Assembly (NCBI GenBank): GCA_903881505.1
Contig: CAIRTM010000037.1
Location: 1-35,437 of the forward strand
Length of the DNA: 35,437 nt
Source of the DNA: an uncultured delta proteobacterium
GTDB taxonomy: Bacteria; Desulfobacterota; WTBG01; CAIYCZ01; CAIRTM01
Direction: 5' to 3'
The first letter of the stretch is position 1. Each line of letters begins with the position of its first letter. Below, piece after piece: positions 3,578 through 21,594 of the stretch. The translations under genes were made by a program, and so were the position numbers. The notes below the pieces were generated by a model. That model was not told the DNA's origin and ran no database searches. It saw only the letters and a program-made list of their open reading frames with translations.

Positions 3578-3580
3578 ATA

Positions 3581-4126: not shown

Positions 4127-4129
4127 TTT

Positions 4130-5563: not shown

Positions 5564-5739
5564 TATTTATTCGCCTCGTAAAATCTGCGCTCATTTTCGT
5601 CGTGGACATCGAGCGCGTCGTTCATCAGCGCAACATCCTCAAGGTCAATCGTGCAGTCCTTGAAGCTTTCATACTTACACATACCGCGCACAGCGGGCCG
5701 CAGCAGCCAGTCCTCGCCGTCGGGGAGACTTACCCAGCT
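5563..5739 (-). CDS. Second tail-assembly chaperone ORF, probably expressed by -1 frameshift
   Basis: This 58-codon frame has no ATG near its conserved beginning. The readable protein starts SWVSLPDGEDWLLRPAVRG and continues with CTIDLEDVALMNDALDVHDENERRFYEAN. That resembles small DUF6889-type proteins found between chaperone and tape measure genes. The frame is -1 relative to the upstream chaperone (5730-6149) and stays open upstream across its end. A Shine-Dalgarno-like AAGGAG lies about 8 nt before a CAGAAAC stretch there. This is the gpG/gpGT arrangement known from lambda and many tailed phages. No classic slippery heptamer is visible, so internal initiation (GTG or ATG at codons 17 and 20) remains possible. 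The 5' limit is approximate. Confidence 0.6.
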   Translation of the reverse strand, partial: SWVSLPDGEDWLLRPAVRGMCKYESFKDCTIDLEDVALMNDALDVHDENERRFYEANK

Positions 5740-6149
5740 GACTGACCGCTTTGTTTCTGGATAGCTCCTTGTAAATCCGACGGCAGTGCGGCGAAAAAAC
5801 CGGAAAGATTGTACATGAAGGCTTTCGCCGCCAGCTGCAGCATGACGGGCAATGTGATATCCTCAAACATGAGGGTGATTCCGGTATTCACCTGCGCCCA
5901 GCCCAGCCCGTCCGGCTGTTTCCTTCGCACGCAGTCCAACAGGCCGAAAACAACATAGTCGGAGTCGGCGTCGCTCAGCTTTGCCAGTGCGTTTGCCAGG
6001 GGGGTTAGAACGTCAGCCCCTGCCGACGGTTTCCCGACAGCGGGGGCCAGTTCTGACAGGACAGGAGCAAGCCTACGGACAATATGAAACTGTTTTCGTG
6101 CATCAATCTTTCCGCAACGGTATGTGATCCCCATCAGATCAAATTCCAT
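5730..6149 (-). CDS. Tail assembly chaperone
   Basis: 139 residues from the ATG at 6149, which is preceded by AAGGGA; a GTG one codon upstream gives the 140-residue form. The protein opens EFDLMGITYRCGKIDARKQFHIVRRLAPVL, a short beta start then a helix. It continues as an all-helical acidic/hydrophobic protein ending LPSDLQGAIQKQ. This is the pattern of chaperones that coat the tape measure before tube polymerisation. It lies between the tube gene and the tape measure, exactly where such proteins occur. The downstream -1 frame carries the likely extension. Confidence 0.7.
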   Translation of the reverse strand: MEFDLMGITYRCGKIDARKQFHIVRRLAPVLSELAPAVGKPSAGADVLTPLANALAKLSDADSDYVVFGLLDCVRRKQPDGLGWAQVNTGITLMFEDITLPVMLQLAAKAFMYNLSGFFAALPSDLQGAIQKQSGQSAG

Positions 6150-6164
6150 CACAATCCCTTTCTG

Positions 6165-6623
6165 TTACCCGCTTATCGTCGGGGTTCCAACGCCGAGCAC
6201 CTGATTGGTCTTTATGGCGTCGAAGGTCCACTCGTTCATGCCGCCCTCTTTGGCGTAGGTTATCGAGGCCCTTTTTTTGAACGCCACCTTCTCGAGGGTG
6301 ATGATATCGCCGCGGCCGGCGTCGCGGACCGTGATCGTGTTGCGGCCGTGCAGCACCGCGCTCGTGGTCTGATAGTTGTACATGGTCTGCAGCTGGGCAT
6401 TCACGGGCGAGGTTTTCAGCAGCCTGACCGTCACGGTTGAGGATTCATTGGCGGCCAGGGAGTGCATGCCGTTCCCGTCTGCGCCAATGGTCATGATGTT
6501 TTTGTCCTCAACGGGCTCAATGGTAATACCCTCATCCGACACCGCCGCGCCGGCTGCCATGTTGATCGTACCGCCCGGCCCGGAGAGCGCAGCCGATACA
6601 TCAAGAAAAGAATAAGTGCTCAT
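6165..6623 (-). CDS. Tail tube protein (DUF3277-like)
   Basis: 152 residues, with AAAGGAG upstream of the ATG. It starts STYSFLDVSAALSGPGG, then has VEDKNIMTIGADGNGMHS, TVTVRLLKTSPVNAQLQTMYNYQ and a DIITLEKVAFKK strand. This residue order is that of DUF3277 tube proteins: Y-x-F-x-D-V, then GADG-x-xMHS, then LLKTSPVN. The protein forms the inner tube through which DNA passes. It follows the sheath gene by 24 bp, as in other contractile-tail operons. Confidence 0.88.
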   Translation of the reverse strand: MSTYSFLDVSAALSGPGGTINMAAGAAVSDEGITIEPVEDKNIMTIGADGNGMHSLAANESSTVTVRLLKTSPVNAQLQTMYNYQTTSAVLHGRNTITVRDAGRGDIITLEKVAFKKRASITYAKEGGMNEWTFDAIKTNQVLGVGTPTISG

Positions 6624-6647
6624 GTTTTAACGCTCCTTTCGCGTGGT

Positions 6648-8138
6648 TTATCGGTTCACGTCAACAATGACGTCCATTTCATGAATCGCTCCGGCCAGCT
6701 TCAGCGCGATCTGGATCGGGGGCGCAATGCGCTGCTCGCGGTCTGCCTGCGCCTGCAGGGCCATCGGGGCCGAGTAGATGTAGTAGCCGTCTTTGAGGTA
6801 GTCACCCAGCTCGATCTGGCCGAAACCGGCAGCATTCCAGGTCCCCGGAGCCACAAGGCCGTTGTTGACCGCTTCCTGGCACACGCCGGCGGCAACGGCA
6901 ATCAGCATGTTCTGCCCGGCATCGGTCTGGGGGATCTTCGTCTTGCTGGTGTAGAGCAGGTTATACTCGGCGGTCTGCAGCGCGTCCTGGAACCAGTCCA
7001 GCCCGTGCCGCTCGTCGATATAGGAACCGTCGCACATCACGCCGTACTGCAGGATCGCCGTATCGTTCTGATAGGCGGCGAAGACGTTACACTTCTTGGC
7101 CTCGAGGGTCAGGGCCTGCGTCTCAGTCAGGTTTTCTGCCGTAATGCCGGGCATCTGTTTATACATCAGCGTAATGGTTGAGCGGTTCGCGCTGAAATTG
7201 ACGCTGAACGCCCTGCCGAAAACGGAGCAGGCGGCATTCGCATTTGCGCTGTATACGCAGAATGTGCGGGCATATTCAAGCGCTTCGAGCTGATAGGCGA
7301 TATCGGAGGTGTAGACCGATTCGGGGGTGTTCGCGTCGGTCTCGGTCACGCCGTACATCCTGGCGGGGGATGCCGCCTCAACGTAGGCTGCATTTGCCAG
7401 GATCTGTGCGTCTGACAGCGAGTTTGTAACGGCGAATCCCAGCCCGTACCATGCGCCGGACTTGTCGCACAGGTCGGCAATCGCAGCAACGGGCTCCTCG
7501 GCGGCATATCCGGGCAGCTCAAGCAGACCCAGCGCTGAAGTTCCCTTAATGATTCCGCTGATTTCGGTCCCGGCTCCACCGCCCGCGGTAAGGAATGCGA
7601 TGGAGGAATTGACGCCTGTCGATGCCGACGAGATAATAAACTTTTCGCCGTCCCATTCGCAGTTTGCACCGGTGAGCGCCGTATCGATAACAGTCGCACA
7701 GCCCGACAGCGTAGTGCAGGAATGGAAGTCAAGGCTTGATATCCTGTCCGGGGTTGCATCGCCGTCAATGGCGATTTTAAACTCACCGTCTGTGATTGCC
7801 TTCAGGGACGCGAGAAGCGCGGCCTGCGCGGATGCTGCCACAACGCCGCAGTACAGGGCGCCTGAGGTTGCGGCCTGCAGCCAGCGGCCGATCATCAAGG
7901 TCTCAGGCCTGGGCGACTGGCCGAAATACAGGGCAGCGGCAAGATACTCAGGTGCGCTTGTCCCGAAGTCGTCTGCCACGCTGTCCAGGTCGGTGTATGA
8001 GCGGTAGCGCTCATAGCCGTTGATAATGGCAGAATCTCCGATAATCATCAGGGTTCCGAACCCGCGCCGCGCTGCTGCGATAGGCGACAGGTTCACTTCA
8101 CAGCGCACAAGGCGCGAAGGGTTGAGGGTTGCAGTCAT
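6648..8138 (-). CDS. Tail sheath protein (DUF3383-like)
   Basis: 496 residues. It starts with NPSRLVRCEVNLSPIAAARRGFGTLMIIGDS and has RYRSYTDLDSVADDFGTSAPEYLAAALYF and PETLMIGRW. The C-terminal region carries FNVFAA-like residues (KKCNVFAAYQNDTAILQYGVM), then YIDERHGLDWFQDALQTAEYNLL. These are the hallmarks of DUF3383 contractile sheath subunits. Contraction drives the tube into the host, so this gene fixes the phage as a myovirus type. A good Shine-Dalgarno (AAGGAG) precedes the ATG. Confidence 0.93.
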   Translation of the reverse strand: MTATLNPSRLVRCEVNLSPIAAARRGFGTLMIIGDSAIINGYERYRSYTDLDSVADDFGTSAPEYLAAALYFGQSPRPETLMIGRWLQAATSGALYCGVVAASAQAALLASLKAITDGEFKIAIDGDATPDRISSLDFHSCTTLSGCATVIDTALTGANCEWDGEKFIISSASTGVNSSIAFLTAGGGAGTEISGIIKGTSALGLLELPGYAAEEPVAAIADLCDKSGAWYGLGFAVTNSLSDAQILANAAYVEAASPARMYGVTETDANTPESVYTSDIAYQLEALEYARTFCVYSANANAACSVFGRAFSVNFSANRSTITLMYKQMPGITAENLTETQALTLEAKKCNVFAAYQNDTAILQYGVMCDGSYIDERHGLDWFQDALQTAEYNLLYTSKTKIPQTDAGQNMLIAVAAGVCQEAVNNGLVAPGTWNAAGFGQIELGDYLKDGYYIYSAPMALQAQADREQRIAPPIQIALKLAGAIHEMDVIVDVNR

Positions 8139-8150
8139 TGCATTGTCTCC

Positions 8151-8753
8151 TTATGTTGTGGGTATCTCAGTCTCAAAATCTGCGCTGTTTATGTCACCGA
8201 CAGCCTGCACGAAAGATAAAACACGATATGTGCGCTCGGCATGCCGTCTGAAAGTCAAGGTTATGTCGGCCCTGTCATACCAGCGATCACCTACCAGCTC
8301 AGGCACGCGGGTCACGTTTGAAGCCGCGGCAAAGGCCATGCCGGCCAGATATAGCTGCTCGCGGTTCTGCCCAAGCTGCAGCGCGTCCCGGATGTTGAGC
8401 GCGTACAGCATGCAGCTCGGACCGTACACCTGGACCAGGACCTCAATACTGTCATGCGTTGAAAGCCGGGCCTGCTCGGTTGTTACCTGGTCCTCTGTGA
8501 TTTCCTCCTGCGCGAGGTATGACTGCCCGGCCTCGGGCGTAATGTTCTGGATGCCGAAAGCAATCCAGTTTACGGTCGGCTCAGGGATCGTCGGCGGCGT
8601 CGGCTGCCACAGTGCGCGGATCAGGCCCAGGGTTCCGCTGATCCCCGTAATGCCGGCAAGAATGCTGCGCAGCAGGCTGTCCAGGTCGCGGCCCTCGTTC
8701 GGCGCCGTTACTGCCTGCAAATACCCGCCGGTTGCGCTGGTGTTGTCTGCCAT
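8151..8753 (-). CDS. Neck/tail terminator protein (LIC_12616-like)
   Basis: 200 residues. The middle region reads NWIAFGIQNITPEAGQSYLAQEEI, then HDSIEVLVQVYGPSCMLYALNIRDALQLGQNREQLYLAGMAF, and ends WYDRADITLTFRRHAERTYRVLSFV. This order (N-W-x-x-F, EVLVQVYGP, then R.D.T..F.R) is the pattern of phage neck terminator proteins that cap the tail at the connector. The ATG directly follows the stop of the upstream gene. It lies immediately before the sheath gene, consistent with a terminator role. Confidence 0.7.
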   Translation of the reverse strand: MADNTSATGGYLQAVTAPNEGRDLDSLLRSILAGITGISGTLGLIRALWQPTPPTIPEPTVNWIAFGIQNITPEAGQSYLAQEEITEDQVTTEQARLSTHDSIEVLVQVYGPSCMLYALNIRDALQLGQNREQLYLAGMAFAAASNVTRVPELVGDRWYDRADITLTFRRHAERTYRVLSFVQAVGDINSADFETEIPTT

Positions 8754-9239
8754 TTACGCCGTCCGTTTCCTGATAACATAGGTGATGCTATTGAGCAGTG
8801 ACCCGGTAACGCGCAGGATCGCGGTCCCTTTGAACCCTTTTGCCTTGCGAGCCCGTACAGTCGGACTGTCCGAGGGGTAGTTCCCCAGGGCTTTAATTTT
8901 TGCCTTTACCTTCGACACTGCCAGCAACCCGGCTTCGTCCAGGCCGCGCGTTGCACGCTTTGGGTTTGTCAGAGTTTCAATGGCCGCAGCCCTCAGCCGT
9001 TTGAGGCATTCGGGCTCCGCTTCTTTCACGCCGGGGATCAAAAAAGGCCTGGGCGGGATGTTGAGCGCTGCGCTGCCGAACTCGTTCTGATAGCCAATTT
9101 GCGCATTGCCGATTTTTGCGTCATCCTTGCGCGGGCTTTTTTCGGCCGGTATCCCGATCAGTACCTCGTTTGCCTCGAGCGTCTTGATTGCCCTAAAAAC
9201 CTCTTTTGTCCTGTCGATTGTCACGCGGGCGCCCTTCAT
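8754..9239 (-). CDS. Tail completion/neck protein (HK97 gp10-like fold likely)
   Basis: 161 residues from the ATG at 9239, which overlaps the upstream stop as ATGA; a longer in-frame extension to 9425 overlaps the preceding gene and is rejected. It contains EVLIGIPAEKSPRKDDAKIGNAQIGYQNEFGSAALNIPPRPFLIPGV. The combination of a V-L-I-G-I-P strand, an N-E-F-G turn and IPPRPF-L-x-P is shared by Mu gpG/HK97 gp10-type head-tail joining proteins. The C-terminus is basic. Role inferred from motif and position between the adaptor and the terminator. Confidence 0.7.
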   Translation of the reverse strand: MKGARVTIDRTKEVFRAIKTLEANEVLIGIPAEKSPRKDDAKIGNAQIGYQNEFGSAALNIPPRPFLIPGVKEAEPECLKRLRAAAIETLTNPKRATRGLDEAGLLAVSKVKAKIKALGNYPSDSPTVRARKAKGFKGTAILRVTGSLLNSITYVIRKRTA

Positions 9240-9541
9240 GTGAAAATAGCCCCCGCGCAAAACAGGCGTGACAGGTGCTGGAACTGCCGGCCGTATGACG
9301 TCGTTTCGTATCCCGGCTGCTTTGTCTGGCTGGTGTCCTGAGAGGTAGCAACACCGCCGAAAGTGCCGAGGATGAGGTAATGGGCGGCCACGAGGTGCAC
9401 CGCCCTGGTCCTCATATCGCCCCACATGTCAGTGCTGACCAGCTGCTCGGCAATGGTGCCGCAATTGGCAACTGAGGCCGCAATGTAGTCAGTGGTGGAC
9501 GCAAACTCGGGGAACTCCGTGCGAAATGCTGCGCTGTCCAT
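9236..9541 (-). CDS. Head-tail adaptor (DUF4054-like)
   Basis: 101 residues with the opening FRTEFPEFASTTDYIAASVANCGTIA, then DMRTRAVHLVAAHYLIL and a Gly-rich loop, ending TTSYGRQFQHLSRL. Adaptors of this kind (F-R-x-x-F-P-E-F, helical core, A-A-H-x-L, Y-G-x-x-F/Y-x-x-L) sit under the portal and seal the head. The start overlaps the upstream stop as TAATG and the end overlaps the next gene as ATGA. This chain of overlaps suggests coupled translation of the neck genes. Confidence 0.75.
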   Translation of the reverse strand: MDSAAFRTEFPEFASTTDYIAASVANCGTIAEQLVSTDMWGDMRTRAVHLVAAHYLILGTFGGVATSQDTSQTKQPGYETTSYGRQFQHLSRLFCAGAIFT

Positions 9542-9738
9542 TACCTGCGTTTCCTTCCGCTGGCAGGCTTTTTATCAGCCACCGGATCGGCCTGCACTTT
9601 TTCAATGTCGCCGTTTGCGACAAGGGATTTAAATTCATCCAGTCCGGCAACCTCTGCCGAGACTTCATGCACGCCCGGGTTAAAGCGCAGTGCCGGGTCA
9701 AAGTTAAACTGCCGTGTGCTTTTAAATGTTGCTTTCAC
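9541..9738 (-). CDS. Small head-tail junction protein, function unknown
   Basis: 65 residues from a GTG start at 9738, with GGAGAGG about 10 nt upstream. The sequence MKATFKSTRQFNFDPALRFNPGVHEVSAEVAGLDEFKSLVANG is beta-rich, then the C-terminus is strongly basic (KKPASGRKRR). Similar tiny proteins with an F-x-P-G-x-H/x-V core follow capsid genes in many myophages and are annotated only as hypothetical. It is the first gene after the hairpin behind the capsid gene. I recognise the position but no function. Confidence 0.55.
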   Translation of the reverse strand: MKATFKSTRQFNFDPALRFNPGVHEVSAEVAGLDEFKSLVANGDIEKVQADPVADKKPASGRKRR

Positions 9739-9781
9739 CAGGAGCCCACCTCTCCTATCCCTACCGGTTAAAAAGGGAAGA

Positions 9782-9837
9782 CCGGGGAAGCTGTGGCCGC
9801 ATGGGATGGAGCACGCGCCACAGCCTTATCCCCCCGG
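9782..9837 (-). terminator. Long GC-rich hairpin behind the major capsid gene
   Basis: Read on the minus strand, CCGGGG pairs with CCCCGG and, inside, GCTGTGG pairs with CCACAGC. A short CTTTTT run follows about 10 nt further on. It lies in the 110-bp gap between the capsid stop and the small neck gene. It could be a partial terminator or 3' stabiliser that makes capsid mRNA more abundant than the tail genes. The T-run is weak and distant, so full termination is unlikely. Confidence 0.45.
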
Positions 9838-9848
9838 ACAGGCAGCCC

Positions 9849-10829
9849 TTAGTAACCGTAGGCGAAGTAGCAGGCCTCGGGTTTCACAAACTCCACCGTG
9901 CCGAAGCGGCAGTAGTAGATCGATACCTGGTTGAGGCCGATGTTCTGCACGGGCAGCGAGAGCAGAACGGACCGGGGCCAGCGGACCACGTCTTCGCGCT
10001 TGGTGTAGGCCACCATGCGGTCGGTCGTTCCGGACGCGATGGACGCCAGCTCGCGGATCGGCACGATCTCAAGCGGCTTGCCGTTCATGCTGTTGGAGAG
10101 GCTGTTTTCAGCCAGGAACTTGGCAAGGCTCATGCTGCCGTTGTCCAGCTTGCGGCTCAGCAGGTAGGAGAACTTCGCCGGAGCAAGGCCGAGGCGATCC
10201 GGGCACATCGTGTAGCCCGTTGCAGCCCAGCAGGCGGCAAGGACGGTGTTGATGTCGGTCAGCACTTCCTCGTCCGTCTTGGCGGTCCACAGGCGGGACG
10301 TTGAACCGGCATTATTGGCAACCTGCGACTCGGTGACGAGCGTTGAATTGCACAGGCCGTACACGCCGGCTTTCGTATCGCCCAGCATGGTCATGCCCTG
10401 GCTGTCGAGGTTCAGCTTCAGCTGCAAAGCGCTGAACAGCTGCGGATCGAGCGGGCGGCCCAGTTTCTGCGCCTGCGCCAGCTCAACAACGCTTTTCTGC
10501 ACCGACTGGCCCCACAGGAAGGTCTTTGCGGTCACGCGCTCCGAGTCCACGTTCACGCCGGGGATCTCGGTTGACTTGCTGGAGATGAACGACTTGCCGG
10601 TTGATTTTTCGCCGCCGGCGGCATAGAAGTTCAGCCGGTCGAAGGCGGTCGTCTCGTCGGCAACGTCCAGATCCACGACGTCGATATCGCGTGCGAACGG
10701 GAACGATGCCATCGGCTCATGCAGGACCGGATCGAGGCGCTGCAGCTCGTTTGAGAAAAACACACCGGTCGAGTCGATGGTCGCCCGGTCGATGGTTGCA
10801 TTGTCTTTGAAGAAAATCTTTTTACTCAT
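9849..10829 (-). CDS. Major capsid protein (DUF2184-like)
   Basis: 326 residues from the ATG at 10829, which has AAGGAG 10 nt upstream; the in-frame ATG at 10895 lacks this and overlaps the cement gene. It contains FARDIDVVDLDVADETTAFDRLNFYAAGG, then GVNVDSERVTAKTFLWGQSVQKSVVELAQAQKLGRPLD. The C-terminal part reads RMVAYTKREDVVRWPRSVLLSLPVQNIGLNQVSIYYCRFGTVEFVKPEACYF. The D-x-x-x-E-R-x-T-x-x-x-x-x-W-G segment and the terminal R-x-G-x-V-E-x-x-x-P-x-A are typical of the DUF2184 HK97-fold capsids. It builds the icosahedral shell. Confidence 0.88.
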   Translation of the reverse strand: MSKKIFFKDNATIDRATIDSTGVFFSNELQRLDPVLHEPMASFPFARDIDVVDLDVADETTAFDRLNFYAAGGEKSTGKSFISSKSTEIPGVNVDSERVTAKTFLWGQSVQKSVVELAQAQKLGRPLDPQLFSALQLKLNLDSQGMTMLGDTKAGVYGLCNSTLVTESQVANNAGSTSRLWTAKTDEEVLTDINTVLAACWAATGYTMCPDRLGLAPAKFSYLLSRKLDNGSMSLAKFLAENSLSNSMNGKPLEIVPIRELASIASGTTDRMVAYTKREDVVRWPRSVLLSLPVQNIGLNQVSIYYCRFGTVEFVKPEACYFAYGY

Positions 10830-10857
10830 GGTTTTAATCTCCTTTGCGCTGTGGGCG

Positions 10858-11625
10858 TTAGATGTTGTATGCGATTTCAGCGATGTTGTTGGCATCCTTC
10901 GCGCCGGTGAAAAACGCGCCGGGGATTGCTTCTGTCGTCAGGGAAACAACGGGCGAGAACTTATCGCCTGCCGTCATGGTCCCGGCTGCCGTGATCGTGA
11001 AGGTCAGGCCGGCTGCGGTGTACTCGGTGCCGACAACGGCGTCCTTCAGGCGGTTGCCGTTCGGGTCGATCACGGAGCAGGCTGCGGTCTGCGACGTGGA
11101 CAGCAGCGTGATCACGTAGGTGCCGGGAACGATGACGGTCGCGTCTGCGACGGTGCAGGCAATCGTGCCGGTTCCGGTGCCGACGATGGTCGGGTTCGTC
11201 ACGGCCGCAACAGCACCGGCCTCAATGCCGCCCTGGTAGCGGGTTGAGGATGTAGCAGCTAGACGCACATACACCTTGCCGCCCTTCGCGGCGGTGCCGT
11301 ACTGCACGCTCACGGCGCAATAGCCGGAGCGCAGACCGTTCACAACCGCGGGATACACGGGCGGGGTGGCGGTCAGAATGGCCTCGTTGCTTGACGCGCC
11401 GGGGACCTGCGGGAAGGGCCGCACGATAAAGCCGTATGTGTCGGCCGCGCGGTCGGTGTCAACGAGCCCGGTGATGGTGTCGCTTGCGTCGATCTGGAAC
11501 GGCAGGCCGTACTTCGTCAGCGGCAGGGTTGAGGACTGCATAAATGCGTCAACCACTGCCCCGGAGCGGGTGATCGCGCCAGCAGGCGCAACGGGGATTG
11601 TGCTGGTAATAACCTGATTTGCCAT
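10858..11625 (-). CDS. Structural cement/capsid decoration protein
   Basis: 255 residues. The first 120 (ADTYGFIVRPFPQVPG, then LRSGYCAVSVQYGTAAKGGKVYVRL) follow the pattern of phage cement proteins that plug capsid threefold or interface sites. The later region (VTNPTIVGTGTGTI... TAAGLTFTITAAGTMTAGDKFSPVV) is a repetitive beta sandwich, apparently inserted or duplicated. The protein then returns to the capsid-like end AIPGAFFTGAKDANNIAEIAYNI. It lies between protease/scaffold and capsid, the usual place. The beta insertion may be an outward-facing decoration domain; that part is inference. Confidence 0.72.
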   Translation of the reverse strand: MANQVITSTIPVAPAGAITRSGAVVDAFMQSSTLPLTKYGLPFQIDASDTITGLVDTDRAADTYGFIVRPFPQVPGASSNEAILTATPPVYPAVVNGLRSGYCAVSVQYGTAAKGGKVYVRLAATSSTRYQGGIEAGAVAAVTNPTIVGTGTGTIACTVADATVIVPGTYVITLLSTSQTAACSVIDPNGNRLKDAVVGTEYTAAGLTFTITAAGTMTAGDKFSPVVSLTTEAIPGAFFTGAKDANNIAEIAYNI

Positions 11626-11657
11626 TGTCTTGTCTCCTTGTGTGCTCTTGGTTTTGT

Positions 11658-12308
11658 TTACAGTTTCGGAACAGGGAACATCTCTTTTGCCCGATCGTTC
11701 AGGCGCTTGTGCTGCGATACGGGAGCAGGCGCGTCGTTCGTCGGAGCTTTCGTTTCTGCCAGGCGTGCCTTGCGCTGTTCTTTCAGCAGCTCGGACGCGG
11801 CGACAAACAGCTCGATGCTGTCAAACGCCGGAGCCTTGCCGCAGGAAAGCGTGTCGATGATCGCCTTGCCGTCGGTGGTCGCATAAGCGGCTTTCAGCGC
11901 AGACGGGATAATGTCGGCCGAGGTTGCAATGCCGGGAGCCAGTATTTCAGCGCGTGACATGGTCTCAGCATCCGGTACACTGTCGCCGGTGGGAGTTGCG
12001 GGAGGAGCGGGCTCTGCGGTCAGCCTGTTGATCGCTTCCTCAAGCACCGCGATACGGTCGGAATAGCGGCCCATTTCCTCACGGCATGCGTCAAGCTGCA
12101 GGCGCATATCGTTTACAATGACCGATATGTCAGCTGCATCCTGTGCTGGCACTGCAGGATCAGGCGGATCCCCTGCTGCAGGAGGATCACCCGCGGGCGG
12201 GTCTGCGTCATTGGTCGGCTGCGCGGGCGGTTCTGCCTCGTCAACAGCAGCATCAAAAGCGGAAAACCAGCTCCTGAGCTGTTCTTTCAGGCCTTTCAGT
12301 TTTGTCAT
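11658..12308 (-). CDS. Internal in-frame scaffold protein within the protease gene
   Basis: An ATG at 12308 lies in frame inside the protease gene, and AAGGAG is placed 6 nt upstream of it. The product would be 216 residues beginning MTKLKGLKEQLRSWF. It is helical and acidic, with a Pro/Ala/Asp-rich linker and a coiled coil, and ends in a basic tail (HKRLNDRAKEMFPVPKL). This mirrors lambda C/Nu3, where the scaffold is made from an internal start of the protease gene. The start site is seen directly; the role as scaffold is inference from that precedent. Confidence 0.65.
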   Translation of the reverse strand: MTKLKGLKEQLRSWFSAFDAAVDEAEPPAQPTNDADPPAGDPPAAGDPPDPAVPAQDAADISVIVNDMRLQLDACREEMGRYSDRIAVLEEAINRLTAEPAPPATPTGDSVPDAETMSRAEILAPGIATSADIIPSALKAAYATTDGKAIIDTLSCGKAPAFDSIELFVAASELLKEQRKARLAETKAPTNDAPAPVSQHKRLNDRAKEMFPVPKL

Positions 12309-12875
12309 GCCTATCTCCTTGAGCGAAATTTGATCTTGTATGGCGCACTCGCTGCCGCAGCGGCCGGCAGGCACAAGTGCGCAGTGGTTGCCAATGATGC
12401 TCGTCTGGTGTCCCTGGCCGGGTCCGTCTGCAACGTATTGCGCGTCGTATCCGAGCGACACTTCACGCAGGCCGTTGCGGATTGCAAAAATTGCCTCGGC
12501 GTCAGTTATAAGCAGGTCTGCCATGAGCTTGTCGTCGTCCGGGCTTTCACCTGGTCGCACGTTCTGGATCACGCCGGCTGCGTACAGTTTCCAGTTTTCC
12601 GGGGTGATCATTTCCGTGGGGTGCAGCAGCGTGACCGGCTTGCCCTCAAAGGACGCGATTGTAACGGCGTCGAAAAGGACCTCAGGCGCGCGCGAGACAA
12701 CAACCTTGCCGGCCGGGGCGTCAATGATTGGCTGTCCGTTTTCGTCGGTCAGTTCCTGTGCGGAATAGATCAGCTGGCCGGTGCGCGCAATAGGCACATT
12801 TCGGCAAAGGAGGTATCCCTCCGGGGTCTCCTGCTGGTTCTCGCTGATGAATGCTGTGGTGTAGTAGTTCGGCAT
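11658..12875 (-). CDS. Prohead protease (DUF2213-like) with C-terminal scaffold domain
   Basis: 405 residues from the ATG at 12875; a TTG three codons upstream is an alternative. The first 180 residues contain EGYLLCRNVPIARTGQLIY, VTLLHPTEMITPENW, DAEAIFAIRNGLREVSLGYDAQY and GNHCALVPAGRCG. His (in LHP) and Ser (in VSLGY) are likely catalytic residues of this S14/S49-unrelated prohead protease family. After residue 193 a new domain begins: Pro/Ala/Asp-rich, then a coiled coil (CREEMGRYSDRIAVLEEAINRL), as in scaffolds. No Shine-Dalgarno is visible before 12875, because the upstream RNA element ends directly there. Confidence 0.8.
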   Translation of the reverse strand: MPNYYTTAFISENQQETPEGYLLCRNVPIARTGQLIYSAQELTDENGQPIIDAPAGKVVVSRAPEVLFDAVTIASFEGKPVTLLHPTEMITPENWKLYAAGVIQNVRPGESPDDDKLMADLLITDAEAIFAIRNGLREVSLGYDAQYVADGPGQGHQTSIIGNHCALVPAGRCGSECAIQDQISLKEIGMTKLKGLKEQLRSWFSAFDAAVDEAEPPAQPTNDADPPAGDPPAAGDPPDPAVPAQDAADISVIVNDMRLQLDACREEMGRYSDRIAVLEEAINRLTAEPAPPATPTGDSVPDAETMSRAEILAPGIATSADIIPSALKAAYATTDGKAIIDTLSCGKAPAFDSIELFVAASELLKEQRKARLAETKAPTNDAPAPVSQHKRLNDRAKEMFPVPKL

Positions 12876-12882
12876 TTTGGCC

Positions 12883-13029
12883 AAAAAAAAACCGCACAGC
12901 AGGCGCGAAGCCTAAACTATGCGGTGTGTTCGGTATCCCCTAAAAACAGGGGCGACATTAACCGGCTATATTCACTTTTTTGTTAAAAAACCAAACCTTT
13001 CTGTGCTGCGTTAATTCACCCTTAGCACA
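12883..13029 (-). ncRNA. C4/P4-CI-like antisense RNA element in the head operon
   Basis: On the minus strand this gap folds into ordered elements. A hairpin (TGTGCT/AGCACA, 13002-13029) shows GGGTGAATTAAC in its loop. A second hairpin CCCCT/AGGGG lies at 12937-12952. A terminator ACCGCA/TGCGGT is followed by a run of nine T (12883-12925). The segment GTTAATGTCGCCC (12950-12962) is complementary to the first loop with one bulge and one wobble. The string GATACCGAACACACCGCA before the terminator is one I recall from the C4/P4-CI immunity RNA and ash region of enterobacterial phages. Family match is from memory; the folding is visible in the sequence. A short frame (ATG at 13031, 24 codons) may be a leader peptide. 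Confidence 0.55.
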
Positions 13030-13048
13030 CATTTTGACACTTTGTCAA
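13020..13048 (-). promoter_or_regulatory. Possible promoter/operator upstream of the C4-like RNA
   Basis: A perfect -35 TTGACA (13048-13043, minus strand) is part of a 15-bp palindrome TTGACAAAGTGTCAA. At 17 nt distance the -10 would be CTAAGG, which is poor, although preceded by TG one base away. It could be a regulated promoter that needs an activator, or a protein-binding site only. It is placed correctly to start the RNA element downstream. Confidence 0.3.
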
Positions 13049-13080
13049 CCATAAAATGGAAAGAATGACATTTTTTTTCT

Positions 13081-13269
13081 TTACCCGTCCTCGTCAACCT
13101 CGATCCAGTCAGGGGCGTGATCGTAGTAGATGCACTGGAATGGCGTCGCGTTCTCGCCCTCCTTGAAATCGAAAAACGTCGTGCAGTGGTAGCACATGCG
13201 GCCCGGGCATTGCGTGCACTTGTACATCCTGCCGACGATATTCAGACCGATTACGTTCCCGGGTGACAC
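13081..13269 (-). CDS. Small CxxC protein, function unknown
   Basis: 62 residues from a GTG at 13269 that overlaps the preceding stop (TAGTG). It contains YKCTQCPGRMCYHC, four cysteines in a C-x2-C-x4-C-x2-C arrangement, suggesting one zinc site. An acidic tail follows (DHAPDWIEVDEDG). It is reminiscent in size of Mu Com, a zinc-binding translational regulator, but the spacing differs and I do not claim homology. It is the last gene before the C4-like RNA, so it might belong to that control unit. Confidence 0.55.
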   Translation of the reverse strand: MSPGNVIGLNIVGRMYKCTQCPGRMCYHCTTFFDFKEGENATPFQCIYYDHAPDWIEVDEDG

Positions 13270-13439
13270 TATCTGACCTCAACCTGTTTTGTGATTTTCG
13301 CCACCTGTCCGTTGTTCAGGTGCACCGTGATATTGCCGGTGTCCCCTGCTTGAATTATAGCCAATTCCATAAAAATTTTCAGGACTTCTTTTCTGATATC
13401 GGGCTTTTCGACGATATTCACCACGCGCGAGCAGCTCAT
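13269..13439 (-). CDS. 56-residue YezD/DUF2292-like protein
   Basis: The ATG at 13439 overlaps the head morphogenesis stop as ATGA, and the stop overlaps the next GTG as TAGTG, so it sits in a tightly coupled chain. The protein has a helix (RKEVLKIFMELAIIQAG) then two strands, GNITVHLNNGQVAKITKQVEVR. The pattern G-x-I-x-V-x-x-x-N-G-x-V-x-x-I-x-x-x-x-x-x-R is that of small DUF2292/YezD proteins, of unknown biochemical role. Length and order agree. It is too short for many gene callers. Confidence 0.6.
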   Translation of the reverse strand: MSCSRVVNIVEKPDIRKEVLKIFMELAIIQAGDTGNITVHLNNGQVAKITKQVEVR

Positions 13440-14215
13440 TCAGTGCCCTCATCAACAGGTAACAGGACAGGCTCAGGATAACAGCGGCAGTTCGGGAACT
13501 GACCCGGGTGATGGCTCTCGCCGTCAGATAACGTCGGCGGGCTCGACCAGGAGAATATCTCGCCGGCGTCTGAGCGCTCGGCCATTTCGCGGTGGCTGTC
13601 ACGCACGACCTCATCCTCCATCGTGCGCCAGTAATAGCCGGTTGATCCTACCGATTCAGCCCTTGCCTGCGTGAGCATGCTGTTTGCCTTGGCCGTCTCT
13701 GTCCGGGCGATCACGCGAGCCCGGCCCTCGGTAACATCGCCTGCCCGCTCGATGTCTTTTGCGATCTCCTCGGGCCTCAGTCCCGCAACCATCCCGGACC
13801 GTGCCCGTTCCTGGGCCCATTTCCCCGCCTCGGTCGGTATGGACTTGATAAGCTGCACCTGGGAGGCCTGCAGCTCGCGCAGGCGCTTTCCTACGGCATC
13901 ATCGGCAACAAGGCCGCGCAACCCCCTGAATATCGCCTTTGACTGCGCCTGAAAGGCTCTGCGTGCGTCGGTGTCGATCTTTGCCAGGGCGCGGGAGACG
14001 AGCTTCTCAGCCCAGGGTCCGAGCGCCTCAGAATAAGCCGCCAGGGCAGCAAGCATCTTCGCGCCCGATGCACCCGAGGCCAGCGTTGAAGCGTTGCTCT
14101 CAACGATAACACCTGCCATACGGGCGACCTTTTTCAGCTGCTTTTCCAGTTCACGCTCGACGCCTTTCGGCGTTGCGTATGCCGGGCGCTTCTTTGTCGG
14201 CTTCTTACGCGGCAT
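13436..14215 (-). CDS. Phage head morphogenesis protein (SPP1 gp7/Mu gpF-like)
   Basis: 259 residues. The last third holds the family signature: ARVIARTETAKANSML, then YYWRTMEDEVVRDSHREMAER, then HHPGQFPNCRCYPEPVL. The R-T-E-x-x-x-x, D-x-x-V-R-x-x-H and N-C-R-C motifs define SPP1 gp7-type minor head proteins, present in a few copies on the portal. The N-terminus is Lys/Arg-rich (PRKKPTKKRP), as often seen for DNA-contacting minor proteins. It overlaps the portal by 11 bp. Confidence 0.88.
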   Translation of the reverse strand: MPRKKPTKKRPAYATPKGVERELEKQLKKVARMAGVIVESNASTLASGASGAKMLAALAAYSEALGPWAEKLVSRALAKIDTDARRAFQAQSKAIFRGLRGLVADDAVGKRLRELQASQVQLIKSIPTEAGKWAQERARSGMVAGLRPEEIAKDIERAGDVTEGRARVIARTETAKANSMLTQARAESVGSTGYYWRTMEDEVVRDSHREMAERSDAGEIFSWSSPPTLSDGESHHPGQFPNCRCYPEPVLLPVDEGTE

Positions 14216-15620
14216 CTAAGTCACCATTAGCAGGAACGCCATGCGCTACCGGATCGGCCGGCGGTGGAGTCTCTATCACCGGCTCAGGTGGTTCAGCCTC
14301 AGCCTCTTCGATTTCCTCCTGGCTGATCGTTGAAAAGATGCCCGTTTCCTCGCTCGATTTCTTGAGCTCTTTGAGGGCCGTCGCCTGACCGATAATCCCG
14401 GCGTCGGAAACCTTGACAACAGCGTCAGCAACAGCCTGAGCGGCCGTCGCCTTTTCCTGTTCCGTTGTCTGCCACAGGGGATTGAAATCAAAGTCAAAAT
14501 CCGCCGGCAGCGGCTGACCAAAAAGCGACATGCTTGAGCACTCAAGCAACAGGTGGATCGGCTCTCGCAGGCGCGTTTCCTGTTCGCTGGATATGCCGTC
14601 GTAATAGTTGCGGGTATCGCTTTCACCCGTTGCGTTCATCCCGGCGGGCGCCTGGCCAAAAACCTTGGTGGCCGGCATGCGGCCGGCTCCGCACAGCTGC
14701 TGCCCGAACTGCGTCATCATATCCGACAGCCCTGCGAACGTGTAGGAGTTGTAGGCGACCTCGTCTGTTTTGTCCAAGAGCGTAACACCCTGGGAGTTCT
14801 CCATCAGGGCCGTATAAAGCCACGCTGTTGTCATGTTTTCCTGTGCCTTGCTGCCGGCCGCGAGCACGTCACGGAATCCGTCAATTTTCACCGACTTTAC
14901 ATGTGCCTTGCGGATCAGGTCTGCAGAGCCAATCGTCGCCTGGTCGAATGACAGGAGCCGATCATGGATACGCTCAACGATGGACGCTCCCCAGTACTGT
15001 TCAGTCACAGCTTCATCGCCCGGCAACTCGATGCCGATCATGCGCACGCAGCGGCTGTGGTGCACGGTCTCAACAGCTTTTCCCGCGGCCGTTATCAGGT
15101 AGTATTCAGGCAGCCCGATTTTCGGACCTGTCTTTATGCGCCGTACTGGATCAGGCTGCACCTGGTGACGGTCATACACAAGCAGGCCATTAAACTGGCC
15201 CTTGCCGATCCGTCTGATATCAAGCGGAGTCGCGGTTTGCTGGCCCTCGATGTTAATCACGCCCAGTGCCCCGCCGTACAGCCTCGCCCAGCGGATCAGG
15301 TCGGTGATGGCTTTCCACAGCCCGGACCGGACCAGGTACCGCTGCAGCTGCGTCGCCTTATCCTGGTCAATTTCGCCGGTCAGGGTTATCCCCTCGCGGG
15401 TCATGTCCTCGGCTACGTAGTCAACCATGGCGCCGACGACCCAGTTCGTCCTGTAGGCTGCGGTGAGCTGGTCCTTGTCTTTCGTCAGGCCGCTGCGGAC
15501 GTAGGTCCCCTGTGACATAACCGTGCCCGACGACGTTGAAAGCGCTGCGGCTAGGTTCTGGTAGCCGTCGATGAACGCCTTTTTGATTTTGTCGATTGCC
15601 GTGCCTTTTTTATTCTTCAT
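14205..15620 (-). CDS. Portal protein (DUF1073-like)
   Basis: 471 residues from the ATG at 15620 (AGGAG 7 nt upstream); an in-frame ATG at 15653 lacks such a site and overlaps terminase. It contains GTYVRSGLTKDKDQLTAAYRTNWVVGAMVDYVAEDMTREGITL, then WARLYGGALGVINIEGQ, and GASIVERIHDRLLSFDQATIGSADLI. These are hallmarks of the DUF1073 portal family, which forms the dodecameric DNA channel. The family is labelled Acb1-like N-terminal in Pfam because some members carry an anti-CBASS domain. The C-terminus here is only an acidic Glu/Pro tail, so no Acb1 domain is visible. Confidence 0.9.
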   Translation of the reverse strand: MKNKKGTAIDKIKKAFIDGYQNLAAALSTSSGTVMSQGTYVRSGLTKDKDQLTAAYRTNWVVGAMVDYVAEDMTREGITLTGEIDQDKATQLQRYLVRSGLWKAITDLIRWARLYGGALGVINIEGQQTATPLDIRRIGKGQFNGLLVYDRHQVQPDPVRRIKTGPKIGLPEYYLITAAGKAVETVHHSRCVRMIGIELPGDEAVTEQYWGASIVERIHDRLLSFDQATIGSADLIRKAHVKSVKIDGFRDVLAAGSKAQENMTTAWLYTALMENSQGVTLLDKTDEVAYNSYTFAGLSDMMTQFGQQLCGAGRMPATKVFGQAPAGMNATGESDTRNYYDGISSEQETRLREPIHLLLECSSMSLFGQPLPADFDFDFNPLWQTTEQEKATAAQAVADAVVKVSDAGIIGQATALKELKKSSEETGIFSTISQEEIEEAEAEPPEPVIETPPPADPVAHGVPANGDLDAA

Positions 15621-15634
15621 GCGTAAACTCCTGG

Positions 15635-17077
15635 TTAAATGATGTTTTCCCATGCCGCGGCCTTATCGCCTGCCAGCATATCCATAATCGCGTCTATCAT
15701 CGGGTCCACCTGGTCATCGTGCGCGTGTGACATATCAGCGGCGAACGACTCACACTCTGCTAAAAAATCAGACGTGAATGGCGCATCAACAGGCAGGCAC
15801 ACGCTCCCGGCCTCGATGTAGCCGAGCACATCGCAAACCCTGGTATATTTGTCCCGATCGCGCTCGATCCCTTTGACCGGGATGTTGCCCTTGCGCCGCA
15901 CGACCTGGATCAGCCCTGTCCCGGATGACTTGTCTTCGACTTTGAGAGACCGCAGCGCACCGAGGGCATTAATGTCACGGTCGCGGCATTTCGCCCAAAA
16001 GGTAAGCGCCCGGGACTCGAGGTCCGGCGCCTCCCACTTTCCCCGGATCATATCGAGCAGATAGATTTTCCCGTCAATCCCGCGGCCCCACTCCTCGAAA
16101 ACGCTGTAATCGTTTGCCTCTTTGGTTTTCTGGGCGGTGTCGCCGTAAACGATCCGGTATTTGATCTGCGGCAAAACCTTGTACAGTTTGAACCAGCTGC
16201 CCTTAATGATGTTGCCGCCGCGTACAATGGGGCGCTGCTGCAACTGGCCGGCAGTTGCAACCGATCCCAGGGCAGTCTCCAGCGCCTTAACTGCGTTTTC
16301 GTTAAACCGCTCCGGGAACAGCAGTTCGCCGTCTTGGGTCCGTGGATCCCCTGGTCCGACGACATGCCTTGAGCTGCCGGGCTCGTATCTCATTGGGAAG
16401 CAGACATGCTCATAGCCGAGCTCAATAGCAACATCTGAGACATCGCCGACGGCCAGGCGCTGCATGATAATCACGACCGCGCTGTCGTCGTTATTCACGC
16501 GAGAAGGCAGCGACTCACGGAACGTCTGGACGTCAGCCTCAAGCCTGGTCTTGCTGTTTGCATCATCAACGCTGTGCGGATCGTCAAGCAGAATCCTGTC
16601 GCCGCGTGAGCCCGTCATTGAGGTGAATGCCATTGCCTCACGGAATCCGGTCCTCGAGTTCTCAAACTTCGTTTTTGCGTTCTGGTCACCGGTGAGCTCG
16701 ACTGGCCATAGTCGCTGAAACCAGCCCGACTGTATCAGCCGCCGGCACTTTGTATTGTCCCTGACCGCCAGATCCTGCTTATGCGCGGTCCCGAGATAGC
16801 GTAAGTGCTGCATGTCTTTCGGCCCCCACTCCCAGGCGGGCCACAGTGTTGACACCAGCAGGCTTTTCATTGTTCCGGGGGGTACGTTCATCAGTAGCCT
16901 TTTAATCTGGCCGGCTGTTACGGCCTCAAGATGCTCACATATCGCGTCTACAACCCAGCCCCACTTGAGCGGTGTTACCGGCTCGATTACCGGCCAGGCC
17001 TGCCGAACAAAATCTGCCAGAGACCTGCTACATAAATCCCTCTCAAGCGCTTCGGCATACTCATTGACTATCTGCAT
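15635..17077 (-). CDS. terL: Terminase large subunit
   Basis: 480 residues. The ATPase domain has a variant Walker A NVPPGTMKS (residues 64-72) and a Walker B RILLDD (161-166), preceded by FTSMTGSRGD. The RNase-H-like nuclease domain shows Asp313 (YGDTAQ), Asp382 (KVED) and Asp454/455 (HAHDDQVD). It cuts and pumps concatemeric DNA into proheads. Length is normal for the family. It overlaps the small subunit by 17 bp, which favours coupled translation. Confidence 0.94.
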   Translation of the reverse strand: MQIVNEYAEALERDLCSRSLADFVRQAWPVIEPVTPLKWGWVVDAICEHLEAVTAGQIKRLLMNVPPGTMKSLLVSTLWPAWEWGPKDMQHLRYLGTAHKQDLAVRDNTKCRRLIQSGWFQRLWPVELTGDQNAKTKFENSRTGFREAMAFTSMTGSRGDRILLDDPHSVDDANSKTRLEADVQTFRESLPSRVNNDDSAVVIIMQRLAVGDVSDVAIELGYEHVCFPMRYEPGSSRHVVGPGDPRTQDGELLFPERFNENAVKALETALGSVATAGQLQQRPIVRGGNIIKGSWFKLYKVLPQIKYRIVYGDTAQKTKEANDYSVFEEWGRGIDGKIYLLDMIRGKWEAPDLESRALTFWAKCRDRDINALGALRSLKVEDKSSGTGLIQVVRRKGNIPVKGIERDRDKYTRVCDVLGYIEAGSVCLPVDAPFTSDFLAECESFAADMSHAHDDQVDPMIDAIMDMLAGDKAAAWENII

Positions 17078-17498
17078 TTTTGAGCGCTGCGACTATCTCA
17101 CGAAGTGCCTCTGTTGAAATTTTTGAAGTATCAAGAACCTTTGCCGGAGACATACTGCCGTCTGATGATGAGTGGTCGAGCTCTGTTTTGTCTTTCCATC
17201 CGAAGTTGTTTTTTAAATTAAAAATCGAAATTACCGGAACATACTTTCCGGTGAGCGCCATTGTTTCTATATGGTTTTCGATTATGCTTTTTGCCTTTTT
17301 TATAGTGTCAAAAAACTCCTCTTTTTCCTCGTAGTTAACAAGCGTTTGCCGTGATGTATTCAGCGCTATAGCAAGCCCTGTAATGGTCAAAGGAATTTGT
17401 TTTTTATCGCAGGCTTTGAAGTATGCTTCGATTTTTTTTTGTAGATCCGCAACGGTTTTAAACTTCAACGGCCTGCCGGTCTTTTTCTTTGCGTTCAT
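17061..17498 (-). CDS. terS: Terminase small subunit
   Basis: 145 residues from ATG 17498 (AAGG about 12 nt upstream); a GTG three codons before lacks spacing for its own site. A helix-turn-helix region TITGLAIALNTSRQTLVNYEE is followed by helices and a conserved TGKYVPVISIFNLKNNFGWKDKTE. The last feature (F-x-L-K-N-x-F-G-W-x-D-K) is the typical end of small terminase/DNA-packaging proteins that bind cos or pac. It precedes the large subunit. Confidence 0.88.
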   Translation of the reverse strand: MNAKKKTGRPLKFKTVADLQKKIEAYFKACDKKQIPLTITGLAIALNTSRQTLVNYEEKEEFFDTIKKAKSIIENHIETMALTGKYVPVISIFNLKNNFGWKDKTELDHSSSDGSMSPAKVLDTSKISTEALREIVAALKNADSQ

Positions 17499-17578
17499 TC
17501 CAAACACACCCTTCTCAGATACGTATCATTTGCACCGGTCACGCGGCACAGCTCAACGAAGGACCAGCCGCACACTGT

Positions 17579-17815
17579 CTAGCGGCCGGAGATCACCTGC
17601 CGTGCCGTATAGCGCGCCGTGTCGCTGACATGCTTGCGACTGCTGCCTGCATAGTTTGAGACTCCTGACACATCTCCGACTGCATCACAACACAGCTGCA
17701 GCACGGTTGACGCGCACCAGCGGCGCATCTCAAGTATTGAATCCGGTAGAGGATCGTCAAGTAGCGGCGACACGGTCGGGCGTTCTGAAAAAGGCTGCGA
17801 GTATTGTCTCGGCAT
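17579..17815 (-). CDS. Small conserved-looking phage protein, unknown
   Basis: 78 residues from ATG 17815, which overlaps the RuvC-like stop (TAATG); a longer version to 17836 lies inside that gene. It starts PRQYSQPFSERPTVSPLLDDPLPDSI, then has RRWCASTVLQLCCDAVGDVSG and a basic end, SSRKHVSDTARYTARQVISGR. The last part resembles a helix-turn-helix in spacing only. It is the final gene before the terminase operon, a location where many phages keep a late transcription regulator. That is context, not evidence. It is followed by 80 bp without a gene. Confidence 0.5.
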   Translation of the reverse strand: MPRQYSQPFSERPTVSPLLDDPLPDSILEMRRWCASTVLQLCCDAVGDVSGVSNYAGSSRKHVSDTARYTARQVISGR

Positions 17816-18285
17816 TATTTCAACCCCAGATACCATTCCCGGATTAGTATCGCGTCGGCCTCGTTGTCGTCTGAGCCCTGATAGCCGAACCTTTCACGCG
17901 CAACCGCCAGCATTTCCTCTTTGTCGGCGTTGCCCTTGCCGGTAGCCCAGCGTTTAACATCGGCCGGCTGGACGTAGAGCAGCTTGATGTTTTTTACAGC
18001 ACAAAACAGCTCCACTACTGCCCGGAATTTATGGCTTGCCTCGACGGCAGACTTCCCCCTGGTGAATCCTGCTGCGTCTTCACAGACTATAAGGTCCGGG
18101 AAACCCCATGTGTCACAGTGGTACTGCAGAGAGGTGTTGGCGTGTAGTAGGCGGAAGTGTTTCGGCTCTGCCGGCCGTGACTTGGTTTTGGTTTTAGTCT
18201 GAAAATTCCAAGTACCGCTTGAGCGCGATCCGTTTAGCATGTGTGCCCAGCCTGCATGTGTCCCAGGGTCGATTGCGAGGATCAT
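17815..18285 (-). CDS. RuvC-like Holliday junction resolvase
   Basis: 156 residues. It has the family's four acidic positions: MILAIDPGTHAGWA (Asp6), LIVCEDAAGFTRGK (Glu74) and the C-terminal SDDNEADAILI (Asp and Asp/Glu cluster near 140-145). The core VQPADVKRWATGKGNADKEEMLAVARERFGY is typical of RuvC/phage RuvC-like nucleases. It would cut branched DNA produced during replication and packaging. Start overlaps the replication gene stop (ATGA). Small phage RuvC proteins are commonly found between replication and packaging genes. Confidence 0.85.
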   Translation of the reverse strand: MILAIDPGTHAGWAHMLNGSRSSGTWNFQTKTKTKSRPAEPKHFRLLHANTSLQYHCDTWGFPDLIVCEDAAGFTRGKSAVEASHKFRAVVELFCAVKNIKLLYVQPADVKRWATGKGNADKEEMLAVARERFGYQGSDDNEADAILIREWYLGLK

Positions 18286-19124
18286 ATCCCGACAGCCTCC
18301 TTAAGAGCGGCCAGGCCCTTTTTGTGTTTTTGTGATTTTGCGATATTGTCGGCCTCGAAGTGGTTGGCTGAGTACTTCTGCAGGAGAACTCTTCCGTAGG
18401 TGTATGGGTTTTCAATCACGAACTTCGCGCTGCCGTTTGAGCCTGATTTGTCGTTGAGGTGTTTTAGCAGGTATTGTCCTGTGTCCAGGTATGCCTTAGG
18501 GTGCCATCGCTGATTCTGGTTCTGCCGCAGGAACTCGTGGGGGTCAAACCCGTCTCTTAACCCGAGCAGTTCTTCAAAGAGACCTGAGACCTGAACCGCA
18601 AGGTCCGGCTCGGTTTCAATTTCAGGTTCAGGTTTAAGCTTAAGCTTAGGTTTAGGTTCAGGCTTAAAACAAGGGGATACCTTAGGTTCCTGTGGTGTCG
18701 TCTTGATATCCTTGTGGTATCCCTGCGGTATCCCTGTGGTATCCGTGGAGTGCCCTTGTTGTGTCTCTGTCGTATAAGTATCTATCCAACCTATTGATTT
18801 TGACGAGACAGCGGCAAGCATTTTAGCGACAAGGGGCTCAGGCATACATGTTTTTATGGAAATAGCCTCTGAGTCGAGAGGGTTTCCGTCCGGCTTGCCG
18901 TTTTCGCTAAGGATTCCTAATCTCGGTTGGCTCTGCTCTGATAAAATCATGATCAGGGCTACAAAACAGCCGTACATTGCCGGGCCGTCTTCCATCCTCA
19001 GGAGCCTTTTGTACCCTAGCCCCTGCTTGAGCGGCAGGGTAAAATTACCTCGGTTTTTAAACGTGCGGGTCTTTGCGGTTTCAAAGAACTGATCCCAGTT
19101 TAATACCTGCAGCAGCTCAGCCAT
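18282..19124 (-). CDS. Replication initiator (replisome-organiser-like)
   Basis: 280 residues from ATG 19124, which has AAGGAGG upstream; the frame continues 47 codons further upstream without a better site. The N-terminus (LLQVLNWDQFFETAKTRTFKNRGNFTLP, then DGPAMYGCFVALIMILSEQ) resembles the winged-helix start of phage replisome organisers. A low-complexity Lys/Pro/Glu linker lies around residues 155-175. The C-terminal part is not recognised. Repeats inside the gene look like an origin, as in lambda O. It shares an operon with the Cro-like protein and the resolvase. I judge replication likely; exact family uncertain. Confidence 0.6.
   Translation of the reverse strand: MAELLQVLNWDQFFETAKTRTFKNRGNFTLPLKQGLGYKRLLRMEDGPAMYGCFVALIMILSEQSQPRLGILSENGKPDGNPLDSEAISIKTCMPEPLVAKMLAAVSSKSIGWIDTYTTETQQGHSTDTTGIPQGYHKDIKTTPQEPKVSPCFKPEPKPKLKLKPEPEIETEPDLAVQVSGLFEELLGLRDGFDPHEFLRQNQNQRWHPKAYLDTGQYLLKHLNDKSGSNGSAKFVIENPYTYGRVLLQKYSANHFEADNIAKSQKHKKGLAALKEAVGI
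18613..18745. other. Candidate replication origin: five 11-bp iterons plus AT-rich repeats
   Basis: Five tandem 11-bp units occupy 18691-18745 on the plus strand. The best three are TGTGGTATCCC, TGCGGTATCCC and TGTGGTATCCG; TGTGGTGTCGT and CTTGATATCCT are diverged. An inverted copy (AAGGGGATACC) lies near 18672. Next to it, 18613-18672 is AT-rich with hexamer repeats of the TTCAGG/TTTAGG/TTAAGC type. Iterons beside an AT-rich stretch inside the initiator gene are the lambda-type ori arrangement. Confidence 0.6.
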
Positions 19125-19535: not shown

Positions 19536-19741
19536 GCGGCGGCCTCTTTTGCGTTTATACCAAGCAGTTCATCTGCCCGCACAACACCACTGGTTTCTTT
19601 CTGAATGGCGAGCGCGAGATCAACGCCTGGGCGCTGGTTGTACAGGATTATCCTGCGGACCATTGAATCCGAGCACCCCAACCGCTTCGCAAACGAACCG
19701 GGCTTTAAATTATTCTTTTCAAGGTATTCTTTTAGGCTCAT
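19532..19741 (-). CDS. Cro-like helix-turn-helix repressor
   Basis: 69 residues opening MSLKEYLEKNNLKPGSFAKRLGCSDSMVRRIILYNQRPGVDLALAIQKET. The stretch SFAKRLGCSDSMVRRIIL is a helix-turn-helix and the rest follows the YdaS/Cro type (short, G-V-D-L-A-L-A-I-x-K-x-T-x-G). It is divergent from the CI-like gene, the position of Cro in lambdoid switches. The ATG lies 8 nt after the -10 box with no Shine-Dalgarno, so the mRNA is probably leaderless or nearly so. A little over one operator overlaps its promoter. Confidence 0.75.
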   Translation of the reverse strand: MSLKEYLEKNNLKPGSFAKRLGCSDSMVRRIILYNQRPGVDLALAIQKETSGVVRADELLGINAKEAAA

Positions 19742-19745
19742 GTCT

Positions 19746-19800
19746 ATGAAGTATATTCATATAAACTGTCTTGTCAAGAGGAAATATGAAAAAGCTTCAT
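19746..19800 (-). promoter_or_regulatory. Left early promoter with two operators (PR/OR-like)
   Basis: Read on the minus strand: -35 TTGACA (19777-19772), 16-nt spacer, -10 TATACT (19755-19750). Two ATGAA-N5-TTCAT palindromes flank it: 19746-19760 covers the -10 and 19786-19800 lies upstream of the -35. Repressor on the first would block the promoter. The same layout recurs at 21536-21590. Confidence 0.85.
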
Positions 19801-19801
19801 A

Positions 19802-19836
19802 TTGTTTTTAGGCAAAGAAGTTTATATAACGCTGAT
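19802..19836 (+). promoter_or_regulatory. Repressor maintenance promoter (PRM-like), leaderless start
   Basis: -35 TTGTTT (19802-19807), 17-nt spacer and -10 TATAAC (19825-19830) are followed by only 6 nt before the ATG at 19837. The transcript would begin at or next to the start codon, as in lambda cI from PRM. The upstream operator (19786-19800) ends 1 bp before the -35, so bound repressor could touch polymerase and activate. Confidence 0.65.
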
Positions 19837-20442
19837 ATGAGAAAAATCGGCGAGGCTGTAGCGGAAAGGATTAGGCTTTTAGGGCTTATTCGTGCGCATG
19901 TCGCGCGCGAGCTCGGTATGGATGTCGGACAGTTTTACCACTGTCTGACCGGAAAGGTTAACTTTACGCTGGCTCAAGTTGAAAGGCTTTCTGAAATCCT
20001 TGGTGAAAAATACATCACGATCCCTGGAGAGGAGGACAACCTTTCGGTAATTCATGTGCCGGTCTTTAACGGTGGTGCCGGCCAACCGTCACACTGGACC
20101 GACGAAGGCTATCCGGAAGGGCACGCCAGCCAGTATGAAAGTATGCCGGCCGGGTCAGTCGGCAAGCATGCCTTTGGGGTGCGCGTGCATGGCGATTCAA
20201 TGGAGCCCAGTGTAAAGGCTGGCTGGATATGTATTGTCGATCCTGACCGTGAACCAGTCACGGGAAAGATAGTTTTTTATACAAACTGGGACACGGAAGA
20301 GCGCCTTATTAAGCGGCTGCAGCGCACCGATGCCGGCCCGATCCTTTTGAGTGACAACCCGCAATATCCTCCGGTACAGCCGTCCGGGCGGTATAAAATT
20401 TTTCCGGTGGTAAGGGCTTCCATTGACGCAACAGGACTTTAA
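19837..20442 (+). CDS. CI-like phage repressor with S24 self-cleaving domain
   Basis: 201 residues from ATG 19837; in-frame ATGs upstream would fall inside the operator. Residues 1-60 form a helix-turn-helix (HVARELGMDVGQFYHCLTG). The C-terminal S24 domain has VRVHGDSMEP with nucleophile Ser121 and the general base Lys159 (ERLIKRL). The Ala81-Gly82 bond in FNGGAGQ is the likely cleavage site. This predicts RecA-dependent induction. It should bind the four ATGAA-N5-TTCAT sites. The gene starts an operon with the nuclease 16 bp downstream. Confidence 0.9.
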   Translation: MRKIGEAVAERIRLLGLIRAHVARELGMDVGQFYHCLTGKVNFTLAQVERLSEILGEKYITIPGEEDNLSVIHVPVFNGGAGQPSHWTDEGYPEGHASQYESMPAGSVGKHAFGVRVHGDSMEPSVKAGWICIVDPDREPVTGKIVFYTNWDTEERLIKRLQRTDAGPILLSDNPQYPPVQPSGRYKIFPVVRASIDATGL

Positions 20443-21477: not shown

Positions 21478-21535
21478 AGTCGCATCTTGGCTAAAAACCT
21501 TCCGTTTTAAGCGCAATATTTTTTTGTGCCTTGAT

Positions 21536-21590: not shown

Positions 21591-21594
21591 AAAT

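Follow-up and report, generated by a model that had tools for sequence, protein, structure and literature searches.

A candidate terminated RNA unit between the packaging and capsid genes of a phage late operon

The virion operon in the window (the whole 35,437-nucleotide stretch of DNA that was analysed, from an uncultured delta proteobacterium) runs on the minus strand and encodes, in order, a gp3-like packaging protein, terminase, portal, a Mu-F-like head protein, a Cys-rich ORF and then, after a gap, a DUF2213 protease, a further ORF and the major capsid protein. The gap (13080-12883, minus strand) is intergenic and separates the Cys-rich ORF from the capsid protease. What does such a segment do at the boundary between packaging and capsid genes? 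An initial annotation had read it as a C4/P4-CI-type antisense RNA with two complementary internal segments, which could place head synthesis under an RNA immunity switch.

Signals in the gap

The gap is bordered by two genes and contains the following features.

13081-13269, minus strand: Cys-rich ORF upstream of the gap, without a family match; absent at the corresponding place in two related phage loci, L014 and L021
13043-13048, minus strand: TTGACA, a box that matches a −35 element perfectly
13021-13026, minus strand: GCTAAG, a putative weak −10-like hexamer, at a spacing of 16 and with TGT ahead of it (extended −10-like)
12883-13014, minus strand: predicted RNA, from an approximate start site to the terminator end, as deduced from the promoter-like box and the terminator
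12931-12964, minus strand: predicted hairpin with an internal loop, outer helix CGGU/ACCG (12964-12961 with 12934-12931) and inner helix CCCCU/AGGGG (12952-12948 with 12941-12937); an equivalent two-part stem folds in L014 and L021
12883-12925, minus strand: intrinsic terminator, identified by folding and by a terminator scan, with stem ACCGCA/TGCGGT and inner AGGC/GCCT, followed by nine T (12891-12883)
11658-12875, minus strand: DUF2213 capsid protease gene (Pfam PF09979, E 1.2e-44), with its ATG at 12875

The 198-nt gap folds with a predicted energy of −56.9 kcal/mol (z −3.09), and none of 200 shuffles was as good, in agreement with the initial description of a gap that folds on the minus strand. 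For the 145-nt RNA part alone, the fold is just modestly better than that of shuffles (z −1.64, 10/200). The strong terminator said to end the unit is also present, at 12925-12883 with its nine T, and no other minus-strand site in a scan of window positions 1-18400 has a long uninterrupted T-run. The protease ATG lies 7 nt past the terminator end. A ribosome-site scan detected no Shine-Dalgarno sequence at the protease start in the window, L014 or L021, and strong ones at several downstream genes. Separately, the protease ATG in the window (12891-12873), L014 and L021 follows a T-run and an A-run with 4-6 nt between them, and these may possibly form a weak hairpin. Short ORFs are present in the gap, but none is conserved as would be expected of a leader peptide.

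The TTGACA box is half of a palindrome, TTGACAaagTGTCAA (13048-13034), and its occurrence by chance has a probability of ~0.06 in each 200-nt gap. It may act as a working promoter. The −10 box is poor in the window and in L014 and L021, where the equivalent of the window hexamer reads nyTAAk, and a consensus promoter scan did not call the TTGACA/GCTAAG pair.

Control by the prophage CI repressor was considered and rejected: the ATATGAA-N5-TTCATAT repeats seen near the CI gene are not seen in the gap, and the exact palindrome occurs once in the window, with no other exact copy. A repeat in L021, GCATAT-N5-ATATGC, has one other near match only, within a tail gene. Elsewhere in the window, a 66-nt segment is present in two inverted copies (19737-19802 and 21534-21599, 82% complementary) that carry the ATATGAA-N5-TTCATAT repeats; these copies probably serve as repressor operators on either side of the early region.

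Comparison with C4 and P4 CI RNAs

As a structured phage RNA of ~100 nt with internal complementarity, the element resembles the C4 family (RF01695; P1/P7 C4 and P4 CI), whose members are also characterized by RNase P processing at the 5' end. The C4 fold consists of a long closing stem around two hairpins that carry the loops a' and b' (PMC5320573), whereas the window element is a serial arrangement of a hairpin and then a terminator. When the Infernal comparison proposed with the initial annotation was run, neither RF01695 nor c4-a1b1 (RF03163) gave a match in the window at the gathering score or in the segment at E ≤ 10, and RF01695 had no match at E ≤ 10 in the window's own genome. At that same threshold, all Rfam models returned just chance matches to unrelated families for the segment and for the L014 gap. 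As a positive control, the Rfam library found the P4 CI RNA at 74.9 bits, with c4-a1b1 beside it just below the cut-off. The string GATACCGAACACACCGCA, named in the initial annotation as a C4/P4-CI motif, is missing from the P4 immunity region even when 3 mismatches are allowed, and in the viral collection it matches exactly only an unrelated contig.

The location differs as well. The element sits between the Mu-F-like head protein/Cys-rich ORF and the DUF2213 protease, outside the immunity region, where a C4 RNA would precede an antirepressor or kil-type gene; the CI gene is at ~19840-20439. Target sites through which a C4-like RNA could act on an antirepressor-type mRNA were not found, and no target family lies nearby.

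The proposed internal pairing fared unevenly. Segments 13010-13021 and 12950-12962 are present and could form 12 pairs with a single bulged G, but pairing of this strength with the hairpin region also arises in 318 of 1000 dinucleotide-shuffled versions of the 5' part, and the equivalent pairing in L014 and L021 is weak, at −9.2 and −6.4 kcal/mol. A switch based on long-range pairing was rejected, its strength being within the shuffle range and the pairing not being kept in relatives. Should GCTAAG be the true −10 box, the pairing segment's GGGTGA half would overlap the start site and fall largely outside the RNA.

An antisense immunity RNA of the C4/P4-CI type is therefore extremely improbable, and the C4 label should be dropped, because RF01695 does not match while the same Rfam library readily scores the P4 CI RNA. 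What is corrected is a tempting family label: the structured unit is real and conserved, but it is not C4.

Conservation in related phages

Close relatives were found by a protein search with the capsid and protease, and include L015, L019 and L020, which are near-identical to each other, and L021 and L022, which are identical in the gap. L014 is an 8634-base contig of G001, the nearest relative among the genomes compared and of the same genus as the window genome (G000). The unit is conserved in two related lineages (protease 59-63% identical), where the same gap has TTGACA 140-149 nt before the ATG (−149 in L014, −140 in L021), followed by a hairpin and, immediately ahead of the protease ATG, a strong terminator. 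The TTGACA box is kept in the window, L014 and L021 within surroundings that are just 38-54% identical. L014 and L021 share 84% identity over the last 65 nt, compared with 69% in protease coding DNA.

The inner helix persists between L014 and L021 despite both-sided changes in two of its pairs; across these two and the window, five pairs are changed on both sides. The covariation among these three sequences does not clearly beat shuffles, and its support for the helices is suggestive only, because shuffle controls are weak with two or three sequences.

For a comparison that excluded the window, a covariance model, R1, was built from L014 and L021 alone and then used to search the window without filters.

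12884-12983, minus strand: R1 match, 28.5 bits, E 4.3e-4 (a rough value, from a short calibration), the best in the window; the next scores 12 bits

Part of this score reflects hairpin geometry, because the L014 element also reaches 24.7 bits when its antisense strand is scored. In a search of 73 sources (631 kb), among them phages that have a bare terminator at this junction, the window segment is the best non-member match (E 0.0076, equally approximate). An R1 search of host genomes returned no match, a result that says little because the own-genome run missed even the window copy. At the DNA level, no homologs of value were found in public phages or in 98 related genomes, and a scan of viral contigs with the 14-mer CTAAATACTCCGGC gave chance matches only, known lineages aside.

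A survey of the unit's distribution covered 83 loci that encode a related protease or capsid, two of them lacking upstream sequence. The full unit is found only in the close group, and ~77 other phages with a related protease are without it. Six loci (L145-L147, L152, L164 and L167) have a bare promoter-like sequence, TTGCCG/T-17-CATAAT, directly before the protease (read by eye), and four (L182, L193, L211 and L224) have a bare terminator there. Because bare promoter-like sequences or bare terminators sit at this position in other loci, the packaging/capsid junction is a recurrent place for transcription signals.

These bare terminators, together with the weak −10 box, agree with an account in which the packaging and capsid modules of the window are separated by no more than an operon-internal terminator or a hairpin at an mRNA end, TTGACA is not a promoter and no separate RNA is made. 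This account is distinctly unlikely, as three lineages retain both the TTGACA box and the hairpin upstream of the terminator, and the R1 match takes in that hairpin as well.

Function of the unit and related systems

The favored explanation, held with middling confidence, is a promoter-proximal terminated RNA unit within the late operon, laid out like lambda pR'-tR' and punctuating transcription between the packaging and capsid genes. RNA polymerase would start near 13014 on the minus strand, and the resulting RNA of ~130 nt would fold into the looped hairpin and the terminator. Transcription would stop at 12883, a few nucleotides ahead of the protease ATG, presumably with good efficiency. Transcription of the protease and capsid genes would then depend on polymerase getting past the terminator, whether it came from the unit's own promoter or from an upstream late promoter. 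Passage could occur by leak or by antitermination, and such read-through may be regulated. No antiterminator was recognized among the ten window proteins scanned against PHROGs; several proteins are still unannotated.

In pR'-tR', which gives lambda 6S RNA and StxS in Stx phages, a late-promoter transcript stops before the late genes, which need read-through (PMC7873438). The window unit shares with it a promoter-like box, a short predicted RNA and a terminator before virion genes. It differs in that pR'-tR' heads the whole late operon and works with a Q-type antiterminator, whereas the window unit lies between the packaging and capsid modules and no such protein was recognized among those scanned; the two are not known to be related in sequence. 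IsrK of Gifsy-1 (RF01394) is a prophage RNA with a terminated short form that is also part of a longer mRNA (PMC4825925); the window unit has no Rfam match and another context. In having a promoter-like box and a terminator to itself within a late operon, the unit also resembles a moron. Phage morons are independent transcription units in late operons, and the window unit differs from them in that it has no protein gene, just short non-conserved ORFs.

The short pR'-tR' transcript can itself be a small RNA, as with StxS (PMC7873438). By this precedent, the unit could be an independently transcribed and terminated phage small RNA, comparable to an RNA moron or to StxS in a late operon, that acts in trans on host or phage mRNA; the terminator would then be its 3' end. 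The promoter-like box and terminator do make up a complete unit, and the single-stranded linker CTAAATACT and its adjoining stem are identical in L014 and L021 (17/17), more than structure alone needs. Nevertheless, the linker is different in the window, the element is found only in this phage group and the host genomes were negative (in the insensitive search above), and a trans-acting role is considered somewhat unlikely.

With the terminated unit as the preferred reading, the initial proposal that an RNA controls the head genes survives in part: termination would fit, and the architecture recurs in related phages, but the immunity-RNA label and the pairing mechanism fail. In a stronger and quite improbable form, a lineage-specific RNA element would gate the capsid protease and shell genes apart from the packaging genes through controlled terminator read-through, with the terminator also taking the position that the protease's ribosome-binding site would normally occupy. 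Should the terminated unit itself prove correct, an RNA element within the virion operon would put the capsid module under transcriptional control of its own, and the locus would offer a compact natural case for studying the balance of packaging proteins, protease and shell in tailed phages.

Two further observations concern the Mu-F-like gene upstream of the junction. In L014 (7314-8621, minus strand), the Mu-F-like head protein contains an intein (Pfam Intein_splicing, below the cut-off) that the window homolog does not have. A 292-aa ORF on the opposite strand (L014 7428-8306, plus strand), weakly nuclease-like (DUF559), overlaps this gene almost entirely, and both overlapping frames are open in L019 and L020 as well.
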